A stretch of DNA of 64,000 nucleotides from Lysobacteraceae bacterium NML95-0200 (GTDB lineage Bacteria > Pseudomonadota > Gammaproteobacteria > Xanthomonadales > Xanthomonadaceae). Shown here piece by piece: positions 13,714 through 36,123 of this stretch. Both the position numbers and the translations under genes were made by a program. The stretch lies in NCBI GenBank assembly GCA_002798255.1, contig NWQQ01000017.1, positions 62,001-126,000 of the forward strand. The letters run 5' to 3'. How positions within the stretch are numbered: the first letter of the stretch is position 1; each line of letters opens with the position of its first letter. A model generated the notes under the pieces. It did no database searches and had not been told where the DNA came from. It saw only the letters and a program-made list of their open reading frames with translations.

Positions 13714-16065
<2,352 letters not shown>

Positions 16066-18120: not shown

Positions 18121-20200
18121 TACCGACAATACGCAAATCTTTCAGTTCACGCTGGGGCCGGTACAGGGCTTTGTGGCACAGGCGCGTCGTACCCGTGATT
18201 TCTGGGCGGGCTCGTTCATCCTGTCCTGGCTTTCCAGCGTTGCGATTGCCGCCATCCAACGCCAGGGCGGTGAAGTGCTATTCCCCGTGCCGGATGAAAA
18301 CTATCTGGAATACCTCTACGTCAAACACCGTGACAATTCCAATAAGGACGCCTCAAAATCCAAGTTTCCGCAGCAGGGCAGTATCCCCAATCGCTTCCGC
18401 GCCGCCACGGCAAAAGTGCCGCTGGGTTTCGAACCCGAGCGTGTCGGCAAAGCCGTGCAAGATGCTTGGAAGGCACTGGCTGATGCCGTATGGGAACAAG
18501 ACCTCAAGGCGGTTTCCCGGCAAGAAACCAAAAAGATTTGGAACCGACAGGTCGCCAATTTCTGGGAAATCTCCTGGGTGCTGAGCGATAAAGCAACATC
18601 CGGCAACCTGCTTGACCGCCGCAAGAACTGGCGCAATACCGTGCCGCCACAAGAGCCCGGCCATAAATGCATGATGATGGACGGCTGGCAGGAGCTTTCC
18701 GGTGTTGCTGAAACCAATCTCAGCGAGGTGGACAAGTTCTGGAACGGGCTGCGTCAGTCGGGCAGCCCTGGCATTGCCACCGATCTGCGTAAGGGCGAGC
18801 GCCTGTGTGCGATGGCCTTTATCAAGCGCCGCTTCTCGCGCTGTTTCGATACTATCAGCGTGCTTTTGCCCGGCCCTGCTGCCGATGCCACACCCAATGC
18901 CCAACCAGGTAAACCCGGCTACATCCCCAGCCATGTTCATGGCTGGAAATTGCCGCATGCCGTGCCCTCGGTTTCCTTCTTGGCCGCCGCGCCTTGGCTG
19001 GCCGAGGTCATCCGCAATGCGCCGGCAGAGGTTTTTGAAGACTTTTACATCGCTGCCCGTGAGCTGACAGGTCTGAATGAAAAAGACCATGTAGGCACGG
19101 ATAGTGCATTCAGTATTGATATTCGTTGTGTCAGCGAAGCGGTAACGGAACGCCGTGCCGATCGCCTTCAGCGCCTTTGGGCGGGGCTGGACGGGCAGGT
19201 GTATTTCCCGTCAGCCTTGGAAAACCCGCGTATTTTTGGCGCAGACATGCAGCCCCAGGCACGCAAGGTGCTGCAGCAACTGCACAAGCTGCGCAATGCC
19301 GCCGGGCAAAAAGACCTGCCTTCGCCCTATTACGCCATCCTGTTGATGGATGGCGACCAGTTGGGCAAGCATATGGGCGATGAGGACAAGCAAAACCCCA
19401 TCAGCCAGGCGCTCAATGCCTTCACCCAGGCCGTGGGCGATATCGTGCGCGCGCACAACGGCTTTCTCATCTACGCCGGCGGTGATGATGTGTTGGCCTT
19501 GTTGCCGCTGGAAGACGCCCTGCCTGCCGCTGCTGCACTGCAGGCCATGTATTGTGACCTGTTTGCGCAACACAGCCCCAAGGGCAAGCCCATCGACTCC
19601 ACGCTCTCCGGCGCCATCGAATACGTACATATCCGCACCCCGCTGACCCGGGTGCTGCAGGATGCGCACAAGTTGCTGGACGATATTGCCAAGGAAAAAA
19701 CCGGCCGCAATGCCATCGCCGTGCGTGTATGGAAGCCTTCCGGTCTTGCCCTGCAATGGGCCATGCCGTGGGAGAAGGCGCTGGATGCCAATGGCGATGT
19801 GCAAATCGCACGGCTTGCCCGTGACTTTGCCCAACAAGCCGCCGCGGCCGATGGTGAGCGCTTCTCCAACAAGTTCTTCTTCCGTATGCAGCAAATCCTG
19901 GAGCGTTTTGGCGAGGTCGAGGAGACCAAGGAGACCAAGGAGACCAACGTGGTCAATGAGGCCACCCTGCAAAAACTTTTGCTGGCCGAATATCTGCACT
20001 CCTGGGGCGGGCTGGACAAACGCACCGGGCTGGATAGCGGAAGCCTGAAAAAGCAGCTTGAGCAGCTGCTGGCGCAATGCCATCAGTGGCGGCGCGAGGA
20101 GGCCGGTGGTGAGGCGGTGCCTGACAAGAAATCTCCCTTCAACCCCGAGGCAGCGCTCCTGGTGCGTTTCCTCGCCCAAAAAGGTCTGGACAAGGAATAA
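18113..20200 (+). CDS. cmr2: Cas10/Cmr2, HD domain absent
   Basis: A 695-residue signature subunit of the type III-B complex. It starts directly with the Cmr2 N-terminal fold (FQFTLGPVQGFVAQARRTRD, residues 11-30). The roughly 200-residue HD nuclease domain present in Pyrococcus Cmr2 is not there and no HD dyad is seen. The cyclase Palm motif GGDD is intact at about 456-459 (LIYAGGDDVLALL). A lysine/glutamate-rich insert (ETKETKETN, near 605) precedes the C-terminal helical domain. By family knowledge it should make cyclic oligoadenylate on target RNA binding but not cut DNA. ATG 18113 overlaps the cmr1 stop. Confidence 0.95.
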   Translation: MIDTDNTQIFQFTLGPVQGFVAQARRTRDFWAGSFILSWLSSVAIAAIQRQGGEVLFPVPDENYLEYLYVKHRDNSNKDASKSKFPQQGSIPNRFRAATAKVPLGFEPERVGKAVQDAWKALADAVWEQDLKAVSRQETKKIWNRQVANFWEISWVLSDKATSGNLLDRRKNWRNTVPPQEPGHKCMMMDGWQELSGVAETNLSEVDKFWNGLRQSGSPGIATDLRKGERLCAMAFIKRRFSRCFDTISVLLPGPAADATPNAQPGKPGYIPSHVHGWKLPHAVPSVSFLAAAPWLAEVIRNAPAEVFEDFYIAARELTGLNEKDHVGTDSAFSIDIRCVSEAVTERRADRLQRLWAGLDGQVYFPSALENPRIFGADMQPQARKVLQQLHKLRNAAGQKDLPSPYYAILLMDGDQLGKHMGDEDKQNPISQALNAFTQAVGDIVRAHNGFLIYAGGDDVLALLPLEDALPAAAALQAMYCDLFAQHSPKGKPIDSTLSGAIEYVHIRTPLTRVLQDAHKLLDDIAKEKTGRNAIAVRVWKPSGLALQWAMPWEKALDANGDVQIARLARDFAQQAAAADGERFSNKFFFRMQQILERFGEVEETKETKETNVVNEATLQKLLLAEYLHSWGGLDKRTGLDSGSLKKQLEQLLAQCHQWRREEAGGEAVPDKKSPFNPEAALLVRFLAQKGLDKE

Positions 20201-23862: not shown

Positions 23863-23887
23863 CCGGGGTGCAATATTGCAACCCCGG
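23863..23887. promoter_or_regulatory. TGCAATATTGCA palindrome (site 2) inside a longer hairpin
   Basis: The 12-bp palindrome at 23869-23880 is flanked by CCGGGG and ACCCCGG, making a near-perfect 25-base inverted repeat. It sits between cmr6 and the ring-nuclease-type gene, 61 bases before the latter's start. It could act as an operator, or as a weak terminator or attenuator; there is no T tract. Confidence 0.6.
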
Positions 23888-23941: not shown

Positions 23942-25153
23942 ATGCAAACTCAAGAGCAACTCCAACCGCACCAATACGCCAAGCGCATTCTGGTCGTAGT
24001 CAGCGGCATGTCCCCGCAAATTCTGACCGAAACCCTGTATGCACTGACCCAGCGCCAGCAGCCGGCTTTTGTGCCTACTGAAGTCCATCTGGTCAGCACC
24101 ACCAGCGGTGCTTGTCGTGCGCGCCTTGCTCTGCTCAAAGATGATGCCCAGTTTTATTGCCTGTGCAATGACTACGGTCTGGATCCGGCCATCTTTACGG
24201 CAGCCAATATCCATACCATCCGCGACGCCCTGGGCAATCCTCTGGACGACATCCGTACCCCGGCGGACAATGAAGCGGCTGCCGACTTCATCACCGGCTT
24301 CATCCGCAAACAGACTGCCAACCCGGAAAGCGCCGTGCATGTTTCAATGGCAGGCGGACGCAAGACCATGGGTTATTACGCCGGCTATGGACTTTCCCTG
24401 TATGGCCGTCCACAAGACCGCCTCTCGCATGTACTGGTTTCCGAAGGCTTTGAAGGCCATCCCGAATTTTACTATCCCACGCCTGCCAGCAAGACCATTT
24501 ATCGTGGTGAGGGTAAGCCTGCCCTTGATGCCCGTGAGGCAGAAGTGGATTTGGCAGAAATCCCGTTTGTGCGCATGCGCGAAGAGTTGCCGGAAAAAGT
24601 GCTTGAAGCAAACCCTTTGCTAAGCGGAAAGCATGGGTTTGCCGATACCGTGCGAGCTGCCGAAGAAGCGCGCCAGCCGCAGCATATTGTGCTTGACATG
24701 GAAAATATGCAGTTCACTTGTAATGATAAACCCTTGAGGTTACCTGCTGTAAGTTTATTGTTTCTATGTTGGCTTGCTCATCGGCAGAAAACGGGGGAAG
24801 AACAGTTGTCCTATGGCAAGCAAAAAGAAGACTTCGAAAAAGAAAGGCAGTCCTTTGAGGAATTTTGTAAAAAATTTGAAAGGCTTGATCAGTATATTGC
24901 ATCCCGAAGAAATGAAAATCAGAAGTCCTGGCTTGGTGATATAGATAGAACAAAAAAGGCATTGAAAAGCAAGTCTTTTGATAGAAACGATATTCAGATA
25001 AGAAAAAATCGTCTTGAAAAAGATATGGCTAGATTGCTTGGCAAGCAGGTTGCTGAAAAAATGGCTCCGAAAAACATAGGTAAATATGGGGAGGCGAGTC
25101 TCTCCATAGTTGACTTTGAAGAAAACTACACAGTAATCCCCCTGCAAGATTGA
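23942..25153 (+). CDS. CARF ring-nuclease-type protein (NE0113/TIGR02584 family) with C-terminal winged-helix-like tail
   Basis: A 403-residue protein. The N-terminal about 210 residues match the NE0113 CRISPR family (annotated as Csm6-type ring nuclease): ILVVVSGMSPQILTETLYAL at about 16-35 and HVSMAGGRKTMGYYAGYGLS at about 134-153. After about residue 250 comes IVLDMENMQFTCNDKPLRLP and LLFLCWLAHRQ, which looks like the start of an OmpR-type winged helix, then a long lysine/glutamate-rich helical insert. The last third is AT-rich compared with its neighbours. No Shine-Dalgarno is seen before ATG 23942. By family knowledge it should bind or degrade cyclic tetra-adenylate; a DNA-binding role is inferred. 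Confidence 0.8.
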   Translation: MQTQEQLQPHQYAKRILVVVSGMSPQILTETLYALTQRQQPAFVPTEVHLVSTTSGACRARLALLKDDAQFYCLCNDYGLDPAIFTAANIHTIRDALGNPLDDIRTPADNEAAADFITGFIRKQTANPESAVHVSMAGGRKTMGYYAGYGLSLYGRPQDRLSHVLVSEGFEGHPEFYYPTPASKTIYRGEGKPALDAREAEVDLAEIPFVRMREELPEKVLEANPLLSGKHGFADTVRAAEEARQPQHIVLDMENMQFTCNDKPLRLPAVSLLFLCWLAHRQKTGEEQLSYGKQKEDFEKERQSFEEFCKKFERLDQYIASRRNENQKSWLGDIDRTKKALKSKSFDRNDIQIRKNRLEKDMARLLGKQVAEKMAPKNIGKYGEASLSIVDFEENYTVIPLQD

Positions 25154-25184
25154 CCTTGCTGGCTCCTTGAATCAGGAAAAAATA

Positions 25185-26363
25185 ATGACCACACTAATCA
25201 GCCTGCTTGGGAAAAGCCAGCTTGATTCAAAAAGCGGCTATCGCCCGGCCAACTATCGGCTTCCTGACGGCAGCATCCATCCATCCCCCTACTTTGGAAT
25301 GGCACTGGCAAAGAATATCAAAGCTAACAAGCTGGTTCTTGTCGGCACCAGTGGCAGCATGTGGGATGTGTTTTTTGACCATCAAGGCAGTGATGATGAA
25401 GCCCTGCTGTCCCTGGTCGATGCGGTCAGGGACAGCAAAGTGACAGCGGAAATGCTCGCCATCCATCGCGAATATCTCAGCCAGAAGCTGGGGATGGAGG
25501 TCAAGTGCCTGATTATCCCGCATGCCCGCAACCAGGATGAGCAGGTACTTGTTTTGACGGAACTTGCCAAAGTGGTGAAATCCGGCGAGAAAGTCGTTCT
25601 GGATGTTACCCATGGATTCCGTCACCTTCCGATGCTGGCATTGGTGGCTGCACGTTATCTTGCCCATGTTAAAAAAGTGACGGTGCAGGATGTTTATTAC
25701 GGCGCACTGGAAATGACCGACACAAATACTGGAGAAACGCCAGTGCTGAATCTTGGCGGCATGCTTGAAATGCTCGACTGGGTAGAGGCGCTGGCAGCCT
25801 ATGAAAACAGCGGTGACTATGGAGTGTTCGCTCCATTGTTTACAGCAGATGGCATGCCTGAGCAGCAAGCAAGATTGCTTTCGAAGGCGGCTTTTTTCGA
25901 GCGCACCCACAACCCGGAAAATGCCAAACAAAGCCTTACTGGTGCCATAAAAGATGTCCAGGGACACTCCGGCACACTGGGGAGGCTTTTCAGCCACCAT
26001 TTGAGTGAGAATGTTGGATGGTTCAGAAAAGGCCAGCGTCCGGAATGGGAGTTGGCTTTGGCGGATCGTTATCTGGAACGCAGGGACTATTTGCGCGCAA
26101 TTACCTATATGTTCGAAAGCTATATTTCACACTCTGTGCGGCAAGATGGCAGCAACGCCGTCAATGAATTTGAATGTCGTGAAAAAGCGCTCGGTAGAAT
26201 CAGGGAAAGCGACAATCAGCAATTCAGATTGCTTTCCAATTTGCGCAACGCTATGGCGCATGGTGTCCGTCAGAGGGACAAAACCATAGAAAAGCTTCTG
26301 GGTGATGAAGACTCCCTGGACAAGGAATTGAAAAAATTGCGAAAGGTGCTTTTCAAGCATTAG
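25185..26363 (+). CDS. CARF-HEPN ribonuclease (Csx1/Csx2, TM1812 family)
   Basis: A 392-residue type III accessory effector. The CARF half (about 1-185) contains the DxTHG motif of the TM1812 family, DVTHGFRHLP at about 140-149. The C-terminal half is helical and carries a HEPN RNase motif Rx4H as RNAMAH at about 354-359. By family knowledge cyclic oligoadenylate binding activates non-specific RNA cleavage. ATG 25185 is chosen because AGGAAA lies about seven bases upstream; the frame is also open from TTG 25167. It follows the ring-nuclease gene by 31 bases and ends the plus-strand operon. Confidence 0.87.
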   Translation: MTTLISLLGKSQLDSKSGYRPANYRLPDGSIHPSPYFGMALAKNIKANKLVLVGTSGSMWDVFFDHQGSDDEALLSLVDAVRDSKVTAEMLAIHREYLSQKLGMEVKCLIIPHARNQDEQVLVLTELAKVVKSGEKVVLDVTHGFRHLPMLALVAARYLAHVKKVTVQDVYYGALEMTDTNTGETPVLNLGGMLEMLDWVEALAAYENSGDYGVFAPLFTADGMPEQQARLLSKAAFFERTHNPENAKQSLTGAIKDVQGHSGTLGRLFSHHLSENVGWFRKGQRPEWELALADRYLERRDYLRAITYMFESYISHSVRQDGSNAVNEFECREKALGRIRESDNQQFRLLSNLRNAMAHGVRQRDKTIEKLLGDEDSLDKELKKLRKVLFKH

Positions 26364-26476: not shown

Positions 26477-27595
26477 TCAAGTCAGCTTGCTTAATACATA
26501 GCGAGTGCTGCGCCCGGCATTGATTTTTTGCAGGATGCCGCGTGCTACCAGGTCATTGATATCACGCAGGGCAGTATCGGCCGAGCATTTGGCCAATGCT
26601 GCCCATTTGCGGTTGGTCAGGTGGCTGTCCAGACCCTCAAGCAGTTTGCCCAGAACTTTGGCTTGCCTTGGATTGAGTGGTTGTGTGCCCCATTGCTGCC
26701 AAAAGCGGGCACGACCAAGGCTGGCATCGACCGCGATATGTGCTTGCTCGATGGCGCATTGCAATGCTTGCAAGAACCATTGCAGCCAGGCGGTGACATC
26801 CATCGTGCCTTTTTGGGTGTGTTCGAGTATTTGGTAATAGCTTTTGCGCTCGCGCTGAATCTGTGCCGACAGGCTGTAAAAGCGCTGCGGGCTGCCATCG
26901 GCGCGTGCCAGCAGCAAATCTCCAATGGCGCGGGCAATGCGGCCATTGCCATCATCAAAGGGATGCAGGGTGACAAACCATAGATGCGCCAGCGCGGCCT
27001 TTATCAGTGCTGGCTCTGGTGTTTTTGCATTCATCCAGCCGAGAAACTGCTGCATCTGTGCCTGTAAATACTGGGCGGGCGGAGCTTCAAAATGCACTTT
27101 TTGCCGCCCGTATGCACCAGAAACCACTTGCATTGGACCATTGGCATCATCGCGCCACTGGGCTACCCGGATTTTGTTGAGCCCGGAATAGCCGCTAGGA
27201 AATAACGCCGCATGCCAGCCCATGAGTCGAGCTTCATCCAGTGGCGCTGTGCAGTTGCTGGTGGCATCCAGCACCATGCTGACCAAGCCGTCCACATGTC
27301 GGTCTATTGGCGCAAGCGCCCCAATATCCACGCCCAGACGGCGAGCGATGCTGGAGCGGACGGAATTTGCCTGCAACAGCTCACCTTCGATTTCACTGGT
27401 TTTCATCGCTTCCTGGGTGAGCGCAGTGAGCGTGGCCTCATCGCGCAAGGCAAGCCCGGCATCGGTCAAACGCCCGATTAGCAAGCCTTGCGCCTGACTC
27501 ACTTCAGCCAATGGCGTTGCCAGTGCCGCTAGGTCATAGCGCCAGTTGGGCCAGTCTTCGGCTTGCCAGATATAGTTGTAATCGCCGCATTTCAT
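26477..27595 (-). CDS. Fic-family protein (AMPylase type), in CRISPR island
   Basis: A 372-residue Fic protein. The complete active-site motif HPFDDGNGRIAR is at about 211-222. An N-terminal inhibitory helix motif (T-x3-E-G in TSEIEG, 66-71) indicates a self-inhibited class. A C-terminal winged-helix segment (TNRKWAALAKCSADTALRDI, then LVARGILQ) suggests DNA binding. Such proteins usually transfer AMP to partner proteins; the target is unknown. ATG 27595 (MKCGDYNYIW) was chosen because the family N-terminus starts there; the frame is open another 189 bases upstream. It lies between the cmr operon and the cas1-cas2 operon. Confidence 0.85.
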   Translation of the reverse strand: MKCGDYNYIWQAEDWPNWRYDLAALATPLAEVSQAQGLLIGRLTDAGLALRDEATLTALTQEAMKTSEIEGELLQANSVRSSIARRLGVDIGALAPIDRHVDGLVSMVLDATSNCTAPLDEARLMGWHAALFPSGYSGLNKIRVAQWRDDANGPMQVVSGAYGRQKVHFEAPPAQYLQAQMQQFLGWMNAKTPEPALIKAALAHLWFVTLHPFDDGNGRIARAIGDLLLARADGSPQRFYSLSAQIQRERKSYYQILEHTQKGTMDVTAWLQWFLQALQCAIEQAHIAVDASLGRARFWQQWGTQPLNPRQAKVLGKLLEGLDSHLTNRKWAALAKCSADTALRDINDLVARGILQKINAGRSTRYVLSKLT

Positions 27596-27674
27596 GCGGT
27601 GATTGTCTGACTTATTCACCGCATGAGCAAATCCGGGCGTAAGCGCCTGTTGAAGCCCTGCCTGTGTTTTGTGG

Positions 27675-28010
27675 CTATGGCTTTTGCAAAGTCGTGGGTA
27701 TTTGCTGGAAGCCTTGCAGCTTCTGCATGGGAGGCAGTCCCAGATCAACAATGCCCCGGTCGTTGGCAATCTGTCCGGCAACATAGATTGGGCTGCCTTG
27801 CCGTAGCCGATACATCACGACATTTTGAGCCGAGGCTTTGGCTTCGTGGCGGAGTTGTTGAAGCAACTGCGCAGCACTTTCGGCATTGCCCTGATGCAGA
27901 TAGAGAGACTCCAGTAGCATCTGCGCCTGCTTGCGAATCAGGCGATGCACTCGCCGCCCCAATCTGCTGCCCTTGATGTCGTAACTTAGAAAATACCAGC
28001 CTGGCTGCAT
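27675..28010 (-). CDS. divergent Cas2-like protein (second copy)
   Basis: A 111-residue protein. The start QPGWYFLSYDIKGSRLGRRV has the beta strand and YDI aspartate of Cas2, but the sequence then differs from the standard fold: VHRLIRKQAQMLLESLYLHQ is helical and DRGIVDLGLPP is near the end. Its start overlaps the cas1 3' end by 25 bases and it is the third gene of the minus-strand adaptation operon. A Cas2-type structural role in spacer integration is likely from position. A divergent or non-catalytic variant is possible. Confidence 0.7.
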   Translation of the reverse strand: MQPGWYFLSYDIKGSRLGRRVHRLIRKQAQMLLESLYLHQGNAESAAQLLQQLRHEAKASAQNVVMYRLRQGSPIYVAGQIANDRGIVDLGLPPMQKLQGFQQIPTTLQKP

Positions 28011-28936
28011 GGCGGAGTCTCCTCAATTTGCTGTAAATGCCGACTGAAAAGCCGGGCATAGCGGCGCAGTCTGCGTTGGATGATGGTCATGTTTTTCTGC
28101 CAGAGCCGATAGAAGATTTCCCGCCCTTGTTTGCCCATCATGCAACCGCCATTGGCGGTTGAAAAATGCCGCAAGTCCAGATGCCCCTGATTGAATTGCT
28201 GCACCACCCATTGCTCCAGAGCCGGCCGCAGGGGCTCCATCAAGTCACAAGCCAGCGACTGTCGCCCCGGAGTCAATGTGTGATAGAAGCCTAGCCAGGG
28301 GTCTAGCCCGTGAACCAGGCATTGGCGCACGGCTTCATGGTGCGTCAGTGTTGCGCTCAATGAGAGCACGGCATTAACCGGGTCGGGCGGTGGCCTGCGT
28401 TCGCGGCGAACAAAGCCAAGTTCGGGGCGTAACTGTTGCTTCCAATGGCTGAACATGATGCGTTGGGCAATGCCTTCGTGCCCACGAAGAACATCCAGGC
28501 GCTGTGCATTGGCAGCGGCATGCCATTGCTCGCGCAAGGTTTGATGCAGCGCTTTATCGGCATGGCTTCGGGTGCAGTGGATGGATAGCAAAATCTTGTG
28601 CAGTACCAGACGTTTGGAAAGATTGAAGGCCAACTCTGGATCGGTGCTGATGCGGTATTGAGCTACACGGCGTTGCGCCTGACGCAAATGGTTGGCATGG
28701 ATGGCAAAAGAATGCTCGCTATAGCGCTGGTTGAGCACGACGAAGTCAATGCCAAAGCGCTGGCATTGTCCTATCAGCTTGGTGTCGATATTCACCCCAT
28801 GCTGGCAGATGATCCTGCCAATTCGGCGCATTGGCAGCGAGCGTGTGGTTAGCTCCTTGTGGCGGATAATCAAGCACTCCCCCTCATAGGTTAGCGAAAA
28901 ACCTTTGCGGTCAAGTATCAGGTCTGCCACGCTCAC
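27986..28936 (-). CDS. cas1: CRISPR integrase Cas1
   Basis: A 316-residue integrase of new spacers. Metal-binding residues are all in place: E154 in GHEGIAQRIMF, H219 in GLDPWLGFYH, and the acidic D231/E234 in LACDLMEPLRP. DPVNAVLSLSATL is the family signature. The start is GTG 28936, overlapping the upstream cas2 stop (GTGA); GTG 28930 is a credible alternative because GGAG lies five bases before it. The ATG-led frame extends 51 bases further but inside the cas2 gene. Adaptation genes are separated from the cmr genes by the Fic gene and run in the opposite direction. Confidence 0.93.
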   Translation of the reverse strand: MSVADLILDRKGFSLTYEGECLIIRHKELTTRSLPMRRIGRIICQHGVNIDTKLIGQCQRFGIDFVVLNQRYSEHSFAIHANHLRQAQRRVAQYRISTDPELAFNLSKRLVLHKILLSIHCTRSHADKALHQTLREQWHAAANAQRLDVLRGHEGIAQRIMFSHWKQQLRPELGFVRRERRPPPDPVNAVLSLSATLTHHEAVRQCLVHGLDPWLGFYHTLTPGRQSLACDLMEPLRPALEQWVVQQFNQGHLDLRHFSTANGGCMMGKQGREIFYRLWQKNMTIIQRRLRRYARLFSRHLQQIEETPPCSQAGIF

Positions 28937-29199
28937 TCCAGGTAGTGAATGCCATCGATGGTCATGCAGGCCGGAGCCAGCGCCCAATCGTTCTCGGGTG
29001 GGTGCACTTGGGCAAGCAGCAGACTGTCGTAATCTGGATTCAAATAATCTGCAAGCTCATTGCAAAGCGAGAGTGCTTCTTTTTCACTTATGTCGCAAAC
29101 AAAAAAGGATGCTTGCCAATAGGGCGTAACACGACGCAGCCTGCGCATTATCGGTAGTCTGCATTCATTGTCATGGATGTCATAGCCGATGATATGCAT
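28933..29199 (-). CDS. cas2: Cas2 protein
   Basis: An 88-residue Cas2-like protein heading the adaptation operon. MHIIGYDIHDNECRLPIMRR carries the catalytic-type aspartate after the first strand, and YWQASFFVCDISEKEAL matches the YQxSVF region of Cas2. ATG 29199 is chosen because GGAGAGG lies just upstream; the frame is open 216 bases earlier without Cas2 similarity. It would form the Cas1-Cas2 integration complex. With the 111-residue copy downstream, cas1 is flanked by two Cas2-type genes. Confidence 0.82.
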   Translation of the reverse strand: MHIIGYDIHDNECRLPIMRRLRRVTPYWQASFFVCDISEKEALSLCNELADYLNPDYDSLLLAQVHPPENDWALAPACMTIDGIHYLE

Positions 29200-29271: not shown

Positions 29272-29285
29272 TTGCAATATTGCAA
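29272..29285. promoter_or_regulatory. TTGCAATATTGCAA palindrome (site 3), cas2-cas1 promoter
   Basis: A 14-bp perfect extension of the repeated palindrome, centred about 79 bases upstream of the minus-strand cas2 start. The placement suggests that the adaptation operon shares regulation with the cmr operon. Confidence 0.6.
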
Positions 29286-29544
29286 AGCAACTCGGAAGAG
29301 CCGGGCTGTTTTCAATGGTTTGCGTGTGTATTTTTAATTTTCCGAAGTGGGTTATGAAATGCATTTGCCGCCACAACCAATCCTTAAGGCAATTGCCGGA
29401 AAGATGGCCTGCCATTCACCTTTCGAGATAATGGCGCTGGGGATATTGTTTTTAGTATTTTTATAAGTCAGTATGGCTTTTATTTCAGTGTAGGGAATGC
29501 CTTTTGCATAATGACTGATCTGGGCGGATTGGCTGTTTCAGTGG

Positions 29545-29556
29545 TGCAATATTGCA
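29545..29556. promoter_or_regulatory. TGCAATATTGCA palindrome (site 4)
   Basis: Perfect copy, 42 bases upstream of the decayed glycine-zipper remnant at 29598-29668 and presumably belonging to its former promoter. Confidence 0.55.
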
Positions 29557-29597
29557 AGGCGCGGATGGGATGATGCTTTTGTCAGAATGCAGGTCTG

Positions 29598-29668
29598 GTG
29601 ACGGAGGCTGCATTCCCGCTGGCACTGGGTGTATTGCCTATGGTCTTTACAAATGGGTGGATGATTGA
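29598..29668 (+). pseudogene. decayed glycine-zipper copy (C-terminal remnant)
   Basis: About 70 bases align with the 3' end of the neighbouring 82-aa genes: VTEAAFPLALG in one frame, then after a one-base loss IAYGLYKWVDD and stop in the next. The N-terminal half is missing. The 29200-29747 stretch otherwise holds only palindrome sites 3-5 and promoter sequence. Confidence 0.7.
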
Positions 29669-29678
29669 GGCGGGCAGC

Positions 29679-29688
29679 GCAATATTGC
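29679..29688. promoter_or_regulatory. GCAATATTGC site 5 upstream of glycine-zipper gene A
   Basis: A 10-bp palindromic core in GCGCAATATTGCAAAGC. Its centre is 33 bases before a -10-like CATAAT at 29716-29721, thus about -44 from a predicted start near 29728, a typical activator position. Confidence 0.55.
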
Positions 29689-29747
29689 AAAGCATTTATT
29701 GAATCCGTAGTGCTTCATAATCACTGTATCCAAACAGGAGAGACATC

Positions 29748-29996
29748 ATGAGCAACGAAAACAAAGCAAAAGTGGCAGGTGCAGCGGGGGGTGCAACGGG
29801 TGTGGCTGGCTCCATTGGAACGGTGGCAGCGGCCGGTGCGGTGAAGGGATTGAGTGCTGCGGGCATTACTTCCGGCTTGGCTACTGTTGGTGGCGTGGTT
29901 GGCGGCGGCATGGCGGCAGGTTTGGTGACAGTGGCGGCGGCTCCGCTGGCGCTGGGCGGTATTGCCTATGGCCTTTACAAATGGCTGGATGATTGA
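29748..29996 (+). CDS. glycine-zipper small membrane protein A
   Basis: An 82-residue protein starting MSNENKAKVAGAAGG. It consists almost wholly of glycine/alanine-spaced hydrophobic helices (GVAGSIGTVAAAGAVKGLSA, then GVVGGGMAAGLVTVAAAPLA) and ends GGIAYGLYKWLDD. GAGAGAC precedes the ATG by a few bases. Repeated GxxxG and GGG spacing implies membrane insertion and helix packing. The SAAGITSGLATVGGVVGGGM segment resembles the ISG12/IFI6 (Ifi-6-16) pattern. It is one of six close paralogues in tandem beside the CRISPR array. No function is known; membrane effector or bacteriocin-like roles are speculative. Confidence 0.75.
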   Translation: MSNENKAKVAGAAGGATGVAGSIGTVAAAGAVKGLSAAGITSGLATVGGVVGGGMAAGLVTVAAAPLALGGIAYGLYKWLDD

Positions 29997-30006
29997 GGCA
30001 GGTGGC

Positions 30007-30017
30007 GCAACATTGCA
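30007..30017. promoter_or_regulatory. GCAACATTGCA, degenerate site 6 upstream of copy B
   Basis: One mismatch to the palindrome core (C for T). It is in the same position relative to the gene start as site 5, followed by the same CATAAT and CAGGAGAGACATC leader. Confidence 0.45.
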
Positions 30018-30075
30018 AAGCGTTTATCGAGTCTGCATCACTTCATAATCACTTTATTCAAACAGGAGAGACATC

Positions 30076-30324
30076 ATGAGCAACGAAAACAAAGCAAAAG
30101 TGGCAGGTGCAGCGGGGGGTGCAACGGGTGTGGCTGGCTCCATTGGAACGGTGGCAGCGGCCGGTGCGGTCAAGGGGTTGGGGGCTGCGGGTATCACTTC
30201 TGGCCTGGCTGCTGTTGGCAGCGTGGTTGGCGGCGGCATGGCGGCAGGTTTGGTGACAGTGGCGGCGGCTCCGCTGGCGCTGGGCGGTATTGCCTATGGC
30301 CTTTACAAATGGCTGGATGATTGA
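30076..30324 (+). CDS. glycine-zipper small membrane protein B
   Basis: An 82-residue paralogue of copy A with only four substitutions in the middle (GLGAAGITSGLAAVGSVVGG instead of GLSAAGITSGLATVGGVVGG). The leader, start codon context and C-terminal LYKWLDD are the same. The near identity at DNA level shows recent duplication. Both hydrophobic blocks are kept, so it is presumably functional. Confidence 0.75.
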   Translation: MSNENKAKVAGAAGGATGVAGSIGTVAAAGAVKGLGAAGITSGLAAVGSVVGGGMAAGLVTVAAAPLALGGIAYGLYKWLDD

Positions 30325-30334
30325 GGCGGGCAGC

Positions 30335-30344
30335 GCAATATTGC
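30335..30344. promoter_or_regulatory. GCAATATTGC site 7 upstream of the 54-aa gene
   Basis: Core palindrome followed by the same CATAAT and CAGGAGAGACATC leader as copies A, B and E, ending at ATG 30404. Confidence 0.5.
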
Positions 30345-30403
30345 AAAGCGTTTATCGAGTCTGCATCACTTCATAATCACTTTATCCAAACAGGAGAGAC
30401 ATC

Positions 30404-30568
30404 ATGAGCAACGGAGTCAACGCAAACATGGTAGGGGTAGCTGGCGTCGCAGCCGGTATGGCAGGTTCCATTGGTGCGGCGACTTTAGCAGGCTTGGTTT
30501 GCAAAATTGCGAGACGCATCAAGGTGTTTTTGAATGCCAAAATGCATTTGATTAGGGCGGGGTTGTAG
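30404..30568 (+). CDS. 54-aa chimeric glycine-zipper peptide
   Basis: A small open frame that shares promoter, leader and MSN start with copies A/B. It has a short glycine/alanine helix (VGVAGVAAGMAGSIGAATLA, residues 10-29) and then a strongly basic amphipathic tail (CKIARRIKVFLNAKMHLIRA). It looks like a paralogue whose second half was replaced. The cationic tail suggests membrane or nucleic-acid contact. Expression is likely given the intact leader, but the function is unknown. It is too short for standard gene calling. Confidence 0.5.
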   Translation: MSNGVNANMVGVAGVAAGMAGSIGAATLAGLVCKIARRIKVFLNAKMHLIRAGL

Positions 30569-30621
30569 ATGGCGTTTTATCTTAATGGAAATTTTATCAG
30601 TCAAAAATATGGGGGTGTTTT

Positions 30622-30798
30622 GTGAGTGACAATGGCGATTGTTTTGAAAATGTTTTTGGTGTGATGGCGGAAGAAAAAGACAATTTTTGGGTTGTAGATG
30701 ATTCGACTTTGGAAATCTCTCGTGGGCTGGGGTTGGGTGCGGTCGTGAGTGCCGCAGTGTTTTCTTGCCTTGCCACTTATTTCTATTGCAGAGATTGA
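30622..30798 (+). CDS. 58-aa acidic single-span protein (copy 1)
   Basis: A 58-residue frame starting at GTG with GGGGG six bases upstream. The acidic N-terminal half (DNGDCFENVFGVMAEEKDN) is followed by one alanine/glycine-rich membrane span ending SAAVFSCLATYFYCRD. It directly precedes glycine-zipper copy C. Two relatives (31148, 32002) share the ending ATYFYCRD and each precedes another zipper gene, so the pair behaves as a two-gene unit. This copy is the most diverged at its N-terminus. Confidence 0.55.
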   Translation: MSDNGDCFENVFGVMAEEKDNFWVVDDSTLEISRGLGLGAVVSAAVFSCLATYFYCRD

Positions 30799-30845
30799 TT
30801 GCCTGGTGGGTCTGTATTTGATGGGTTGCTGACAGGAGAATGATT

Positions 30846-31094
30846 ATGAGTAATGAAGCAGGTGCAAAGGCGGCAGGTGTGGCAAGTGGCGCAACGGGTG
30901 TGGTCGGTTCCATCGGAACGGTGGCAGCGGCCGGTGCGGTCAAGGGATTGAGTGCTGCGGGCATTACTTCCGGCTTGGCTACTGTTGGTGGCGTGGTTGG
31001 CGGTGGCATGGCGGCAGGTTTGGTGACAGTGGCGGCGGCTCCGCTGGCACTGGGCGGTATTGCCTATGGCCTTTACAAATGGCTGGATGATTGA
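30846..31094 (+). CDS. glycine-zipper small membrane protein C
   Basis: An 82-residue paralogue of the second subtype, starting MSNEAGAKAAGVASG. AGGAG seven bases upstream marks ATG 30846 as the start instead of the ATG six bases earlier. The central and C-terminal part (GLSAAGITSGLATVGGVVGG to LYKWLDD) is identical to copy A. It lies 47 bases after the 58-aa gene without its own TGCAATATTGCA site, so it is probably co-transcribed with it. Confidence 0.75.
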   Translation: MSNEAGAKAAGVASGATGVVGSIGTVAAAGAVKGLSAAGITSGLATVGGVVGGGMAAGLVTVAAAPLALGGIAYGLYKWLDD

Positions 31095-31147
31095 GGTGGT
31101 ATTGCGGGCGTGTTTGAAAATTATTAATGGCTGACTAGGGGTTTTTT

Positions 31148-31324
31148 ATGAGTAGTAGTGCTGATTTTCTTGATGAGATTTTTGGCGTGGGGTCGGGGGA
31201 TAAAGAAGATGCCCGGGATGGAAATGGCGCGGCTGTGGAAATTGCTGCTGGGGCGATAATGGGTGCAACTGTGAGTGCAGCGGTGTTTTATTGCCTTGCC
31301 ACTTATTTCTATTGCAGAGATTGA
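31148..31324 (+). CDS. 58-aa acidic single-span protein (copy 2)
   Basis: A 58-residue frame from ATG 31148. The N-terminus MSSSADFLDEIFGVGSGDKE is acidic; residues 30-52 form one alanine-rich membrane span (AAGAIMGATVSAAVFYCLAT), ending YFYCRD. Its neighbour 47 bases downstream is glycine-zipper copy D. It is nearly identical to the copy at 32002, which shows that the 58-aa/zipper pair was duplicated as a block. Confidence 0.6.
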   Translation: MSSSADFLDEIFGVGSGDKEDARDGNGAAVEIAAGAIMGATVSAAVFYCLATYFYCRD

Positions 31325-31371
31325 TTGCTTGATGGGTCTGTATTTGATGGGTTGCTGACAGGAGAATGATT

Positions 31372-31620
31372 ATGAGTAATGAAGCAGGTGCAAAGGCGGC
31401 AGGTGTGGCAAGTGGCGCAACGGGTGTAGTCGGTTCCATCGGAACGGTGGCAGCGGCAGGTGCGGTCAAGGGGTTGGGGGCTGCGGGCATTACTTCTGGT
31501 CTGGCGGCCATTGGCAGCGCGGTTGGCGGTGGCATGGCGGCAGGTTTGGTGACAGTGGCGGCGGCTCCGCTGGCGCTGGGCGGTATTGCCTATGGCCTTT
31601 ACAAATGGCTGGATGATTGA
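31372..31620 (+). CDS. glycine-zipper small membrane protein D
   Basis: An 82-residue MSNEAGAK-subtype paralogue with central GLGAAGITSGLAAIGSAVGG. The ATG preceded by CAGGAGAATGATT was taken. It pairs with the 58-aa gene at 31148. The C-terminal 35 residues equal those of copies A-C. Confidence 0.75.
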   Translation: MSNEAGAKAAGVASGATGVVGSIGTVAAAGAVKGLGAAGITSGLAAIGSAVGGGMAAGLVTVAAAPLALGGIAYGLYKWLDD

Positions 31621-31630
31621 GGCGGGCAGC

Positions 31631-31640
31631 GCAATATTGC
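31631..31640. promoter_or_regulatory. GCAATATTGC site 8 upstream of copy E
   Basis: Core palindrome in the same leader arrangement as site 5, ten bases after copy D's stop. Confidence 0.5.
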
Positions 31641-31699
31641 AAAGCGTTTATCGAGTCTGCATCACTTCATAATCACTTTATTCAAACAGGAGAGACATC

Positions 31700-31948
31700 A
31701 TGAGCAACGAAAACAAAGCAAAAGTGGCAGGTGCAGCGGGAGGTGCAACGGGTGTGGCTGGCTCCATTGGAACGGTGGCAGCGGCCGGTGCGGTGAAGGG
31801 ATTGAGTGCTGCAGGCATTACTTCCGGCTTGGCTACTGTTGGTGGCGTGGTTGGCGGTGGCATGGCGGCAGGTTTGGTGACAGTGGCGGCGGCTCCGCTG
31901 GCGCTGGGTGGTATTGCCTATGGCCTTTACAAATGGCTGGATGATTGA
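31700..31948 (+). CDS. glycine-zipper small membrane protein E
   Basis: Its protein sequence is identical to copy A (MSNENKAK subtype), with only a few silent DNA differences. It has its own palindrome and CATAAT promoter. Protein identity despite silent changes suggests selection or gene conversion keeping the copies the same. Confidence 0.75.
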   Translation: MSNENKAKVAGAAGGATGVAGSIGTVAAAGAVKGLSAAGITSGLATVGGVVGGGMAAGLVTVAAAPLALGGIAYGLYKWLDD

Positions 31949-32001
31949 GGTGGCATTGCGGGCGTGTTTGAAAATTATTAATGGCTGACTAGGGGGTTTT
32001 T

Positions 32002-32178
32002 ATGAGTAGTAGTGCTGATTTTCTTGATGAGATTTTTGGCGTGGGGTCGGGGGATAAAGAAGATGCCCGGGATGGAAATGGCACGGCTGTGGAAATTGCT
32101 GCTGGGGCGATAATGGGTGCAACTGTGAGTGCAGCGGTGTTTTATTGCCTTGCCACTTATTTCTATTGCAGAGATTGA
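32002..32178 (+). CDS. 58-aa acidic single-span protein (copy 3)
   Basis: A 58-residue frame differing from the copy at 31148 by about one residue (GTAVE for GAAVE). The preceding intergenic DNA (from the zipper stop through GGCTGACTAGGGG) is also nearly identical to that before copy 2, so it arose by segmental duplication. It precedes glycine-zipper copy F by 47 bases. Confidence 0.6.
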   Translation: MSSSADFLDEIFGVGSGDKEDARDGNGTAVEIAAGAIMGATVSAAVFYCLATYFYCRD

Positions 32179-32225
32179 TTGCTTGATGGGTCTGTATTTG
32201 ATGGATTGTTGACAGGAGAATGATT

Positions 32226-32474
32226 ATGAGTAATGAAGCAGGTGCAAAGGCGGCAGGTGTGGCGGGTGGCGTGACCGGGGTGGCTGGCTCGATTGGTACC
32301 GTGGCAGCGGCAGGTGCGGTCAAGGGGCTGGGGGCTGCGGGTATTACCTCTGGTCTGGCGGCCATTGGCAGCGTGGTTGGCGGCGGCATGGCAGCTGGTG
32401 TGGCCTGCACGGCAGCTGCACCCCTGGCAATTGGCGGGCTTGCCTATGGGCTCTACAAATGGCTGAGCGATTGA
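32226..32474 (+). CDS. glycine-zipper small membrane protein F
   Basis: The most diverged 82-residue copy: MSNEAGAKAAGVAGGVTGVA at the start, central GLGAAGITSGLAAIGSVVGG, and a changed second helix (GVACTAAAPLAIGGLAYGLY) ending KWLSD. It is the last member, followed by a terminator and the CRISPR array. Confidence 0.75.
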   Translation: MSNEAGAKAAGVAGGVTGVAGSIGTVAAAGAVKGLGAAGITSGLAAIGSVVGGGMAAGVACTAAAPLAIGGLAYGLYKWLSD

Positions 32475-32620
32475 GTCTATTTGTGGGGCTGCAAGCGGTT
32501 TTCTGATTTCAATAAAAAAGGCGGGCTTCTTGGGCATGGGGACAATTGGCATACCAGGGGCTCCTGATGAACTCGCTGCTGCCTGGCTTGCACCGGGACT
32601 GTTTTTCTGAAATTTTTTGT

Positions 32621-32654
32621 ACGCCTGCCAAGGTCACTTGGGCAGGCGTTTTTT
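32621..32654 (+). terminator. terminator after the glycine-zipper array
   Basis: The stem ACGCCTGCCAAG pairs with CTTGGGCAGGCGT (one bulged G) and is followed by TTTTTT. The 32475-32826 stretch otherwise shows no gene; its distal part borders the trailer end of the CRISPR array. Confidence 0.85.
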
Positions 32655-32826
32655 ATGGGGCTGGTTTGCTTTCGGGCGTTTTGGTTTGAGAAGACTCTGA
32701 AAATTGGATGGGCGAAGCACTGTGTTTTTTGCTACAGCTATTGGAGCAATTATTGGGTTGTGGCGTGACAAAAAGCATCAAGTGGCTGCGTTGCAGAAAA
32801 AACGCTGAACTGTTACGACGTATGGC

Positions 32827-34390
32827 GCTGGAGCGCCCTCAAAGTCGGGGCAGTGAGGGGACCGACATCGCCGCAAAATTGGCCGCTCGGCGAGCGTCTT
32901 AATCCCCTCAAAGTTGGGGCAGTGAGGGGACGGCGAACAATGAGTAAGCACACGCCGGGGCCGTGGGTCTTAATCCCCTCAAGGTCGGGGCAGTGAGGGG
33001 ACGTGGCTCTACATCCGCCAGCAGAAAACCGGGGCGTCTTAATCCCCTCAAAGTCGGGGCAGTGAGGGGACGCCAAGGGGGCGCTTGTCCATATCCACGG
33101 CGATCCGTCTTAATCCCCTCAAAGTCGGGGCAGTGAGGGGACATTTGCCACGAGTTGAAGTGCCGGGGTGTTAAGGTCTTAATCCCCTCAAAGTCGGGGC
33201 AGTGAGGGGACTCACGACTCATCCGTGTCATCCTCATCTGTTAATGTCTTAATCCCCTCAAAGTCGGGGCAGTGAGGGGACTAACAGCGCAGCGGAAAAC
33301 ATCCGCACCATCATGGTCTTAATCCCCTCAAAGTCGGGGCAGTGAGGGGACTTACAACCAATGGAAACGGTGCCGCTCCAGCGGGTCTTAATCCCCTCAA
33401 AGTCGGGGCAGTGAGGGGACTCTCTGTGCCGACGATGAGTCGGCAAGTGAAGCGTCTTAATCCCCTCAAAGTCGGGGCAGTGAGGGGACTGAGACAAGCA
33501 CTCGGGTACGATGAGAGTAACGTCTTAATCCCCTCAAAGTCGGGGCAGTGAGGGGACTTCATCGAGTAATCGATCGACTTCTTGTACTAGGTCTTAATCC
33601 CCTCAAAGTCGGGGCAGTGAGGGGACGCGTACAGGCGCTCTACGCTTTCTCCAAGCGGGGTCTTAATCCCCTCAAAGTCGGGGCAGTGAGGGGACGCATT
33701 ACGACCCTAAACTGGTAGCAAATAAGAAAGTCTTAATCCCCTCAAAGTCGGGGCAGTGAGGGGACCTAATGAATGCGTACTTCGATGAGGTATGCGAGTC
33801 TTAATCCCCTCAAAGTCGGGGCAGTGAGGGGACGGTCAAACTCACGGGTCCCAAAGATGACGTTACCGGTCTTAATCCCCTCAAAGTCGGGGCAGTGAGG
33901 GGACCTAAATGAGTACGGTACTGCTGAATTCCTACGTGCGTCTTAATCCCCTCAAAGTCGGGGCAGTGAGGGGACAAACAGCGCGGATTGACCCGTACTG
34001 GACACCCGAGTCTTAATCCCCTCAAAGTCGGGGCAGTGAGGGGACGATGACTACACCCAGCACATTGTCAACATTGTGTCTTAATCCCCTCAAAGTCGGG
34101 GCAGTGAGGGGACAAGACTTTACGGTCTTTGGACTGCGCAATCGCTGTCTTAATCCCCTCAAAGTCGGGGCAGTGAGGGGACGCAACGCGGTCTATTTGG
34201 ACATCGTGGGCGTGCGTCTTAATCCCCTCAAAGTCGGGGCAGTGAGGGGACCCTGTTCAAGGTCCACTTCGCCATAACCCGTATTGTCTTAATCCCCTCA
34301 AAGTCGGGGCAGTGAGGGGACACATAAAGGAGTTCTTCAGACTCCTACCGTACTGTCTTAATCCCCTCAAAGTCGGGGCAGTGAGGGGAC
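32827..34390 (-). CRISPR. CRISPR array, 23 repeats of 36 nt and 22 spacers
   Basis: Repeats recur every 69-71 bases with 33-35-nt unique spacers. Read on the minus strand each repeat begins GTCCCCTCACTG and ends GAGGGGATTAAGAC. CCCCTCA/TGAGGGG forms a hairpin followed by the eight-base tag ATTAAGAC expected for Cas6-processed type III crRNA. The repeats at the 32827 end are degenerate: the first has lost the last 14 bases of the minus-strand repeat, and the second and third have single changes. That marks the old, leader-distal end, so the leader lies above 34390. Twenty repeats are identical. Confidence 0.98.
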
Positions 34391-34697: not shown

Positions 34698-36053
34698 TTA
34701 TCTGTGCTGCCGGGGAAGGGGGAGACGGCCTTGCGTCATCCACTCTTCAATACGGGCACGGAACTGTGCCGGCGGGATGGGGGCGGGCGTTTTGTTGTCG
34801 CTGGTTTCCGGATGAGCCACCACATGCAGTGCGCCCTGCCGGGCACGGTCAAGTGCTTTGGAGCTAAGCGGCTGCCAGGAAAGCAGCATCTTGGTGCCAT
34901 AGGCCTGATGAGACAGGCGGCTGGCGATCTCGCCAATCTTGTACATGACATCGGCTTCTTTGGCGTCTCTTTTGCTGCCACCCCTTTTGTTCTTTTGTCC
35001 CTTGAGTGTGGCGGTCTTGGCTTCTACCACCAGCAGGCGGTTGCGATGACAGAGCACCAGATCGAGTTCGTTGGGGGTTTCTCCTCTCTTGATCCTGACG
35101 CCCAGCCCACGGCTCAGGCCGGGAATATCCTCGACCTGCCACCAGGCCCATTCTTCCAGCCAGCCGCCGGAGAGGTAGCGCGCCCAGTCGGCATTGGCAA
35201 AGGTGATGCTGGCGAGTTTCCCGTCATTGAGTTTGAAGCTGAGGATGCCTCTGTCTTTGAGTTCTTCAAGAATATGGCGGGGGAAGTAATCGGGCAGCCC
35301 TGACGCCTTGTCGGCGCGCACATTGTTTTTGATGGTTTCAGGGCGAGGGTGATTTTTATGCGGGTTGTAGGCTGCGTTTGCCCAGGCATTGAGAATGCTG
35401 ATGTGGTTGGGCTCCTGCCGAGCCATGAAGTTTTCGGTCAATTCACGGCGTGCTGCCATGGCTTCAAGCTGACGCGGCTGATCGGAAAGCATGGATTCGA
35501 CTTCATAGCCACTGACTTCCAGAAACTGGCGAATATCCAGTGCAACCTGCATGGGTTCTTCGTGTTGATCGGGAAGCAGCCACTGGAATTCTTCGGTTTC
35601 GGTACTGGTATAGGTGATTTGCGTGTCGAACCGATTATCCGGGTCATCGCGAAGGTCTTTCGCGATATCGTGCAGCACCAGCGCCATGATCTTGGTGCCG
35701 CCGGTGATATCAAAGACCAGTTGATGATCGCGGTGGCGATCAGCCCAGCTGCGAAGGCGGGGTGCCAGATCTTGCTTCAGCCTGGCGTAGCTTTCGCCGT
35801 TGTGATCGAGCTTGATGTCCTTGCAGTCAATTTGCCAGCCATGCGCTTGCCGCAGATATTCGGCCTGTTTCTTGACGGCGCCCACCTGGCCGCGCTTGGA
35901 TCTGGTTTCGATCAGCAGCAGGGTGTCGATGAGTGCGCCGTACTGGTGCATGGCCAGTACCAGTGGCATGACGTAGTCGCTGATGACGTAAATCCGTAGT
36001 TGGCACTTTTCTTCAGTGTTGCCGGCCGGTGGCTGGGTATCGGCATGGGACAT
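34698..36053 (-). CDS. Card1/Can2-like CARF nuclease (DUF1887 family)
   Basis: A 451-residue type III effector. The CARF domain (about 15-165) has the loop FDITGGTK (114-121), a middle winged-helix-like region follows, and a C-terminal PD-(D/E)xK nuclease has E300 in GGWLEEW, D331 in NELD, and E344/K346 in VVEAKT. This is the Card1/Can2 arrangement; characterised members cut DNA and RNA when cyclic tetra-adenylate binds. ATG 36053 has AAGGA eight bases upstream; the frame is open 108 bases further. It is divergent from csx16 with palindrome site 9 between them. Confidence 0.88.
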   Translation of the reverse strand: MSHADTQPPAGNTEEKCQLRIYVISDYVMPLVLAMHQYGALIDTLLLIETRSKRGQVGAVKKQAEYLRQAHGWQIDCKDIKLDHNGESYARLKQDLAPRLRSWADRHRDHQLVFDITGGTKIMALVLHDIAKDLRDDPDNRFDTQITYTSTETEEFQWLLPDQHEEPMQVALDIRQFLEVSGYEVESMLSDQPRQLEAMAARRELTENFMARQEPNHISILNAWANAAYNPHKNHPRPETIKNNVRADKASGLPDYFPRHILEELKDRGILSFKLNDGKLASITFANADWARYLSGGWLEEWAWWQVEDIPGLSRGLGVRIKRGETPNELDLVLCHRNRLLVVEAKTATLKGQKNKRGGSKRDAKEADVMYKIGEIASRLSHQAYGTKMLLSWQPLSSKALDRARQGALHVVAHPETSDNKTPAPIPPAQFRARIEEWMTQGRLPLPRQHR

Positions 36054-36111: not shown

Positions 36112-36123
36112 TGCAATGTTGCA
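36112..36123. promoter_or_regulatory. TGCAATGTTGCA, site 9 between card1-like gene and csx16
   Basis: One-mismatch copy of the palindrome, about 59 bases upstream of the CARF nuclease start and 68 bases upstream of csx16, so it could serve both divergent promoters. Confidence 0.5.

Follow-up and report, generated by a model that had tools for sequence, protein, structure and literature searches.

A tandem cluster of small glycine-rich membrane proteins was analysed in a 64,000-nucleotide (nt) window of Lysobacteraceae bacterium NML95-0200 (contig NWQQ01000017.1, positions 62,001-126,000, forward strand; coordinates without a prefix are those of this window), where it lies within a type III-B (Cmr) CRISPR-Cas island. 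In our judgement the cluster has an even chance of being a transcriptionally deployed, sensor-less membrane effector battery of the type III-B system, controlled through a regulator that senses cyclic oligoadenylate (cOA). The candidate regulator is the CARF protein NE0113, and its candidate operator is the palindrome GCAATATTGC. What can be read directly from the sequences is a tandem family, purifying selection, near-constant spacing of the palindrome, conservation in a sister species (genome G001) and recurrence in a second, diverged III-B locus (genome G154).

The cluster consists of six glycine-zipper (gz) proteins of 82 aa and three single-span proteins of 58 aa, together with a chimera of 54 aa and a decayed gz copy. 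It is flanked by the minus-strand cas2-cas1 pair (Pfam) on one side and by the CRISPR array on the other. All of these parts, which an earlier sequence-only reading of the window had described between the adaptation genes and the array, are present in the sequence. They are as follows, as open reading frames (ORFs) unless another basis is given.

29612-29665 (best stretch), plus strand: decayed gz copy, a C-terminal remnant (67% identity to residues 65-82, E 0.05; DNA repeat family)
29748-29996, plus strand: gz1, 82 aa, glycine-zipper membrane protein
30076-30324, plus strand: gz2, 82 aa
30404-30568, plus strand: 54-aa chimera of a gz-like N-terminus and an unrelated basic C-terminus (52% identity over residues 1-33, E 0.6)
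30622-30798, plus strand: 58-aa single-span partner, diverged, GTG start
30846-31094, plus strand: gz3, 82 aa (84 aa from an upstream ATG)
31148-31324, plus strand: 58-aa single-span partner
31372-31620, plus strand: gz4, 82 aa
31700-31948, plus strand: gz5, 82 aa, with the protein sequence of gz1
32002-32178, plus strand: 58-aa single-span partner
32226-32474, plus strand: gz6, 82 aa (closest to the second and last G001 copy)

Three of the six 82-aa ORFs could instead begin two codons farther upstream. AGGAG-type ribosome-binding sequences, judged by eye, are clear for the 82-aa and 54-aa ORFs and weaker for the 58-aa ORFs. DNA identity to a reference unit over 300 nt is 74-90% for the six units, and the 58-aa copy at 30622 is just 47-48% identical to the other two. 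Five cluster proteins (two 82-aa, two 58-aa and the 54-aa) were searched against Pfam and had no domain match at E<=10; within this scope proteins of 54-82 aa thus carry no CARF, SAVED or other ligand-binding match, and no fusion to a sensor was found. Like ISG12 and IFI6, the gz proteins are small, hydrophobic and rich in glycine and alanine, a resemblance on which the sequence-only reading had remarked. The likeness is one of composition: membership of the ISG12/Ifi-6-16 family (PF06140) was rejected, as the five cluster proteins gave no match to it at E<=10, and a search of the whole own genome with PF06140 hit two other places (E 0.29 and 0.39) and nowhere in the cluster.

The palindrome was located at the following positions, given without strand.

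29546-29555: GCAATATTGC, upstream of the decayed copy
29679-29688: GCAATATTGC, 69 nt before gz1
30007-30016: variant GCAACATTGC, 69 nt before gz2
30335-30344: GCAATATTGC, 69 nt before the chimera; proposed unit chimera-58aa-gz3-58aa-gz4
31631-31640: GCAATATTGC, 69 nt before gz5; proposed unit gz5-58aa-gz6
15983-15992: GCAATATTGC, 137 nt before the first ORF of the cas6-like/cmr operon
23870-23879: GCAATATTGC, 72 nt before the NE0113 start used here
29274-29283: GCAATATTGC, 84 nt before cas2
36113-36122: one-base variant, GCAACATTGC on the minus strand, 69 nt before a Card1 ATG

With the palindrome written as op, the order is op-decayed, op-gz1, op-gz2, op-chimera-58aa-gz3-58aa-gz4, op-gz5-58aa-gz6. 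The distance to the start codon is 69 nt in the three gz units with an exact GCAATATTGC and again 69 nt for the one-base variant at gz2 and at Card1, which bears out the earlier statement that four units carry the island's site or a variant of it. The own genome (2.38 Mb) contains 12 exact GCAATATTGC sites, seven of them within 15.7 kb of the island (C23:77983-93640); the binomial probability of this clustering is about 4e-13, or 2e-7 with gz duplicates counted once, for a region picked after the fact. In G001, palindrome sites are found at corresponding places. Because the palindrome is common to both, co-regulation of the gz units with the immune genes is well supported at the level of sequence. 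The same sharing argues against two-peptide bacteriocin-like or otherwise secreted membrane peptides that lie in the island by coincidence. Two kinds of small glycine-rich membrane peptides do alternate here, as such a system would have them, but no double-glycine leader was seen by eye (no search was made for exporter or immunity genes), and we regard this explanation as highly improbable.

Compared pairwise (15 pairs), the six 82-aa genes gave synonymous divergence (dS) of 0.06-1.17, nonsynonymous divergence (dN) of 0-0.15 and dN/dS of 0-0.26. Between gz1 and gz5 there are four silent differences and none in the protein. Sequence comparison thus supports purifying selection on the 82-aa genes, and the selection proposed by the sequence-only reading is given this more definite form. 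For the 58-aa pair 31148 and 30622 the ratio is near 0.9, and therefore no selection is claimed from that pair. G001 has two intact gz copies compared with six in the window, two similar C-terminal remnants and one 58-aa copy; gz6 is nearest to its last copy, and gz1, gz2 and gz5 are nearest to its first. Because these pair with different G001 copies, two gz paralogues are probably older than the species split, and the window locus probably expanded afterwards. Decayed copies in both species and the uneven number of intact ones are what a selfish or hitchhiking tandem duplication with no immune role would leave behind. Such a duplication is nonetheless improbable in our view, given the low dN/dS at dS values of up to 1.17, palindromes held at exact spacing and the recurrence of gz in a second III-B locus.

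Other genomes were examined for a link between gz and type III immunity. Among 17 members of the genus, NE0113 occurs in two and gz in the same two (own genome and G001), with gz between cas2 and the array in both. A class sample of 369 genomes contained gz in two and NE0113 in 30, both gz genomes being among the 30. In G154, the second of these, gz77 lies between cmr6 and cas2 of a diverged III-B locus, whose Cas10, Cmr4 and Cmr6 score over the NCBIfam cut-offs and whose Cmr3 scores under. Identity between window and G154 is about 31% for Cas10 (213 residues), 36% for NE0113, 41% for Csx1, 37% for Cmr4 and 66% for gz (56 residues). By these comparisons G154 is a second association of gz with a III-B system, having apparently arisen independently or by exchange. 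The link to type III systems suggested in the sequence-only reading is upheld by the common position in G001, by this homologue and by the shared palindrome.

In G154 the related palindrome CAAGCTTG occurs at 27 genomic sites, five of them in the 15.3-kb III-B locus. It precedes gz77 by 127 nt, a 60-aa hydrophobic ORF by 70 nt, a 38-aa acidic ORF by 143 nt and a 30-aa ORF by 73 nt. A radical SAM gene (L034:9736-10569) has its own CAAGCTTG; its similarity to the viperin family (39/180 bits) is far below the cut-off. Tiny ORFs with ribosome-binding sites were noted by eye near CAAGCTTG (L034:8553-9572 and L035:11552-15010): acidic ones of 38 and 32 aa, hydrophobic ones of 60, 30 and twice 18 aa (the latter two similar), a further one of 30 aa and one of 13 aa. 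The 32-aa ORF starts MFDFLEEVF, resembling DFLDEIF of the 58-aa proteins. These ORFs are hypothetical genes. Also by eye, cas1 of this locus is in two pieces (L034:11130-11958) and is followed by a second cas2-like ORF.

The proposed regulator is encoded within the island.

23942-25153, plus strand: NE0113, CARF domain and putative C-terminal OmpR-like winged-helix region (PF09623, TIGR02584; CARF fold)

PF09623 and TIGR02584 both score over their cut-offs on the CARF domain. The structural model (predicted local distance difference test score, pLDDT, 84) has a CARF domain and a C-terminal region of strands, helices and a terminal hairpin; the best match in a fold search was Cad1-CARF (Z 15.7, root-mean-square deviation 3.1, 163 aligned), and a Csa3 entry gave Z 9.9. 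When the family profile was compared with the PDB, all seven matches outside the CARF domain were response-regulator DNA-binding domains or proteins, weak (E 0.05-0.54) and not independent, since three are KdpE and two ArlR. A Pfam scan of 29 NE0113 members gave no winged helix-turn-helix (HTH) family and one Sigma70_r4_2 match, in a single member (E 0.04). The NCBIfam label of the family, ring nuclease Csm6, leaves the function unsettled. In excerpts of the work of Makarova et al. (PMC4012209) NE0113 is predicted to be a transcription regulator, and it is unnamed in the main text, as excerpted, of a ring-nuclease survey (PMC12409355). We infer that NE0113 is a palindrome-binding protein switched by cOA, in either direction.

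Upstream palindromes were surveyed at 30 NE0113 loci (28 together with G001 and G154, the window's own being left out), using 160 nt upstream and all 256 8-mer palindromes. CAAGCTTG was found upstream of NE0113 in 15 of the 30, at 51-156 nt, and the next-best palindrome in two; the chance probability from the loci's own frequency is about 1e-19, uncorrected for relatedness. CAAGCTTG is also the commonest palindrome upstream of the cas6-like gene (4/22), cmr1 (3/7) and cmr4 (3/8), and by eye it stands 72-73 nt before two cas2-like ORFs. The difference between GCAATATTGC and GCAAGCTTGC is confined to the two central bases. CAAGCTTG is likely to be a regulatory signature of NE0113-bearing type III systems (loci L075-L099).

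The mechanism envisaged for the battery would begin with infection, on which Cas10 would make cOA. This Cas10 has a cyclase-type GGDD and no HD dipeptide, and therefore a second messenger, and not DNase activity, is presumably its output. The CARF domain of NE0113 would sense cOA, and the putative winged helix would bind GCAATATTGC (CAAGCTTG in many relatives); the gz units, Card1, the cas operon and the adaptation genes would then be transcribed at a different level. The gz proteins and their 58-aa partner would build up in the membrane and perturb it, and the infected cell would be arrested. cOA is proposed as the signal because NE0113 has a CARF domain; harm to the membrane is suggested by the hydrophobic glycine-zipper composition and by analogy with Cam1, Csx23 and Cap1. 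A wider form of the proposal, to which we give somewhat less than an even chance, is that a second messenger, besides activating effectors already present, switches on a multi-copy sensor-less membrane battery by way of a CARF winged-helix regulator and its conserved operator, and that some NE0113-bearing systems may have a hidden layer of output made up of unannotated peptide effectors; the latter is suggested because the G154 operator precedes tiny hydrophobic and acidic ORFs (18-60 aa).

In the CalpL-CalpT-CalpS system, a cA4-activated protease reportedly acts on an anti-sigma factor, and release of the sigma factor gives a transcriptional response. A type III second messenger thus leads to transcription, as proposed here, but the switch is a protease acting on an anti-sigma factor, whereas here it would be a CARF winged-helix protein with a battery of membrane proteins as output. 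Membrane-acting type III output of the kind proposed for the cluster is described in excerpts of several papers: Cam1 depolarises membranes (PMC10808066), and Csx23 (PMC11229360, PMC11014256), CorA (PMC11229360) and Cap1 (PMC12642688) are membrane effectors. Cam1, Csx23 and Cap1 have their own sensor or ligand-binding domain, whereas no such domain is present in the 82-aa and 58-aa proteins, whose switch would be transcriptional. Csa3, according to excerpts (PMC8844856, PMC8699464, PMC7480081), is a cOA-binding regulator of CRISPR genes with a CARF domain and a winged helix. NE0113 would share this architecture if its C-terminal region is a winged helix, but forms a separate CARF family, and its proposed regulon adds non-cas membrane peptides to the CRISPR genes on which Csa3 acts. 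A combination in which small membrane proteins lack a sensor and carry the palindrome of a CARF regulator upstream was not found in the open-licence literature. We file the cluster as a variant of type III effector deployment rather than a proven new kind.

CreTA modules are located near cas genes, and like the cluster they put putative toxin genes beside cas genes and the array. In a guard or addiction role NE0113 would repress gz, so that loss of the island or of NE0113 frees gz and kills the cell, an outcome that CreTA reaches by a different mechanism. The palindrome common to gz and cas genes and the position of the cluster next to the array would suit such a role. A creA-like ectopic repeat was not found in 29401-32820, however (best 19/36 matches, compared with 18-21 in 30 shuffles), most NE0113 systems examined have no gz, and CreT toxins, in the excerpted source, are RNAs, controlled by the crRNA-like CreA. 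We hold the guard role to be rather improbable. Assignment of the cluster to CreTA itself was rejected on the same search, made ungapped on both strands, which a very degenerate or gapped repeat would escape.

Relatives of the gz proteins, at least those among the matches listed, share a core like AAGITSGLA..G..VGGGMAAG. Stand-alone forms of about 76-95 aa among them are from Shewanella, Polaromonas, G154 (twice), G1085, three genomes of one other genus of the family and viral-collection contigs (L025/L026 and L028); Desulfoluna has a double repeat form, and gz modules also occur within longer proteins. A Nostoc LRAT protein (Pfam; L018:9338-10159) has two gz modules after the LRAT domain, with 54% and 51% identity to gz1, and by eye G1007 has a similar protein (L102:1498-2529) and G567 (L036:1417-2022, minus strand) an HTH-like N-terminus followed by a gz module. 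The module is common to these LRAT proteins and gz, but the window proteins have no LRAT domain. Bacterial glycine zippers paired with ISG12 or LRAT were not found in the open-licence literature. A module placed after LRAT or HTH-like parts fits membrane association, and gz might accordingly be a membrane accessory instead of a toxin: anchors or scaffolds, co-regulated with the immune genes on that account, that bring Card1 or the Cmr complex, for example, to the membrane. The 82-aa form has no soluble interaction part, though, and many near-identical copies would be explained more easily by dose than by scaffolding. We consider an accessory role unlikely, if the least so of the alternatives.

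In the phylum sample the gz profile matched six of 398 genomes including the own one; the other five matches are inside ORFs of 160-556 aa, and the one in a RadA-like protein is probably due to chance. The order sample likewise gave gz in 6/398 genomes, the own one among them. In phages and plasmids gz1 had no match, nor had the Shewanella protein in plasmids, in BLAST searches whose low-complexity filter may hide such proteins. The LRAT-gz protein matched 31 plasmid records: one Nostoc plasmid at full length with 81% identity, and the other 30 with best places below 60%; of the 20 matches listed, the 19 besides Nostoc cover only residues 1-103, the LRAT part. The 58-aa family was found among 312 class genomes only in the own genome and as one marginal match (E 0.009).

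The sequence-only reading would be refuted by gz at positions unrelated to CRISPR or defence, and the homologues bear this out in part. Some adjoin other defence-type genes: XamI-type restriction-modification genes at the second G154 copy, a TIR protein in L025, a KAP NTPase in Shewanella and, in Nostoc, a caspase gene nearby with a TIR-like gene farther off, none of which was set against a background rate for such genes near any gene. Others do not. In 14 gz-bearing pieces other than L034/L035, six of which (L036, L102-L106) are only about 3 kb, tblastn gave no relative of Cas10, Cmr3, Cmr4, Cmr6, NE0113, Csx1, Cas1 or Card1; other CRISPR types were not sought in them.

Several results weigh against the effector battery and its regulator. 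Homologues of gz also exist away from type III genes, and the gz-NE0113 association is rare, at two of 30 NE0113 genomes: no gz was found in 28 pieces from 26 of the other 28 (best E 0.82; some are short contigs, from 4.6 kb, and G296, G450 and second copies in G245 and G452 were left out). The palindromes were found post hoc and the loci are not phylogenetically independent. CAAGCTTG precedes csx1 in one of 11 loci and is not among the four commonest palindromes for card1 (6 loci), cas10 (11), cmr3 (8), cmr5 (6), cmr6 (8) or cas1 (3); for many genes this fits an operon-internal position. At Card1 the palindrome has no support outside this genus. In G154 the cas6-like/NE0113/cmr genes have no such palindrome close by: none lies within 160 nt upstream of NE0113, and one site is 670 nt before the cas6-like ORF, so only accessory genes carry CAAGCTTG there. 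The matches of the whole-model fold search of NE0113 were taken up by the CARF domain. A simple scan of the cluster gave no more sigma-70 promoters and terminators than in shuffles, with no plus-strand promoter and one minus-strand site compared with 3.3 in shuffles. The AlphaFold model of gz1, the structure prediction that the sequence-only reading had proposed, has three helices at a confidence (pLDDT 52) too low for a fold search, and pore formation accordingly has no structural support.

Among the type III effectors known (list in PMC11229360), most have a sensor for a ligand. If a membrane arm were deployed through transcription, the type III response would gain a later wave that can be amplified; CalpL-CalpT-CalpS, as described above, is a precedent for transcriptional output, but for neither this switch nor this output. 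Such an arm could also help to explain loci seemingly without effectors; excerpts of PMC11229360 report 133 whose Cas10 is nuclease-deficient and includes a cyclase domain. GCAATATTGC/CAAGCTTG may serve as a handle for the prediction of regulon members, among them peptides that gene callers miss because they are too short.

The island extends over about 15.9-36.1 kb and contains a cas6-like ORF, Cmr1, Cas10/Cmr2, Cmr3-Cmr6, NE0113, a Csx1/TM1812 CARF protein, Fic, cas1, cas2, the array and Card1. Type III-B was assigned from Cas10/Cmr2, Cmr1 and Cmr4-6, all over the NCBIfam cut-off, with Cmr3 at 99.4 compared with 100.4 bits; the cas6-like ORF was named by eye and had no NCBIfam match. Features other than those listed above are as follows.

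18086-20200, plus strand: Cas10/Cmr2, GGDD present, HD dipeptide absent
25167-26363, plus strand: Csx1/TM1812-type CARF protein (Pfam, NCBIfam)
27986-28987, minus strand: cas1 (Pfam)
28933-29199, minus strand: cas2 (Pfam Cas2 match starts at residue 73 of a longer ORF, Met at 29199)
32827-34390, probable minus strand: CRISPR array of 22 spacers and 23 repeats, of which the first is degenerate
34698-36053, minus strand: Card1, CARF and endonuclease (Pfam; an internal ATG was chosen as start)

Read on the minus strand, the array repeat terminates in GGGATTAAGAC, as does the G154 III-B repeat; in G154, cas2 and cas1 lie upstream of the array on the same strand. Because of this match, the CRISPR RNA of the window array is probably transcribed from the minus strand, which would place the gz cluster at the trailer end. 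No self-targeting spacer was found among the 22, the best match elsewhere in the window being 24/34. A 111-aa ORF adjoining cas1 (27675-28010, minus strand) resembles, by eye, a second Cas2-type protein. A DUF4172-Fic protein (26477-27784, minus strand) lies between Csx1 and the adaptation genes, and G001 has an ORF of equal length with a similar start.

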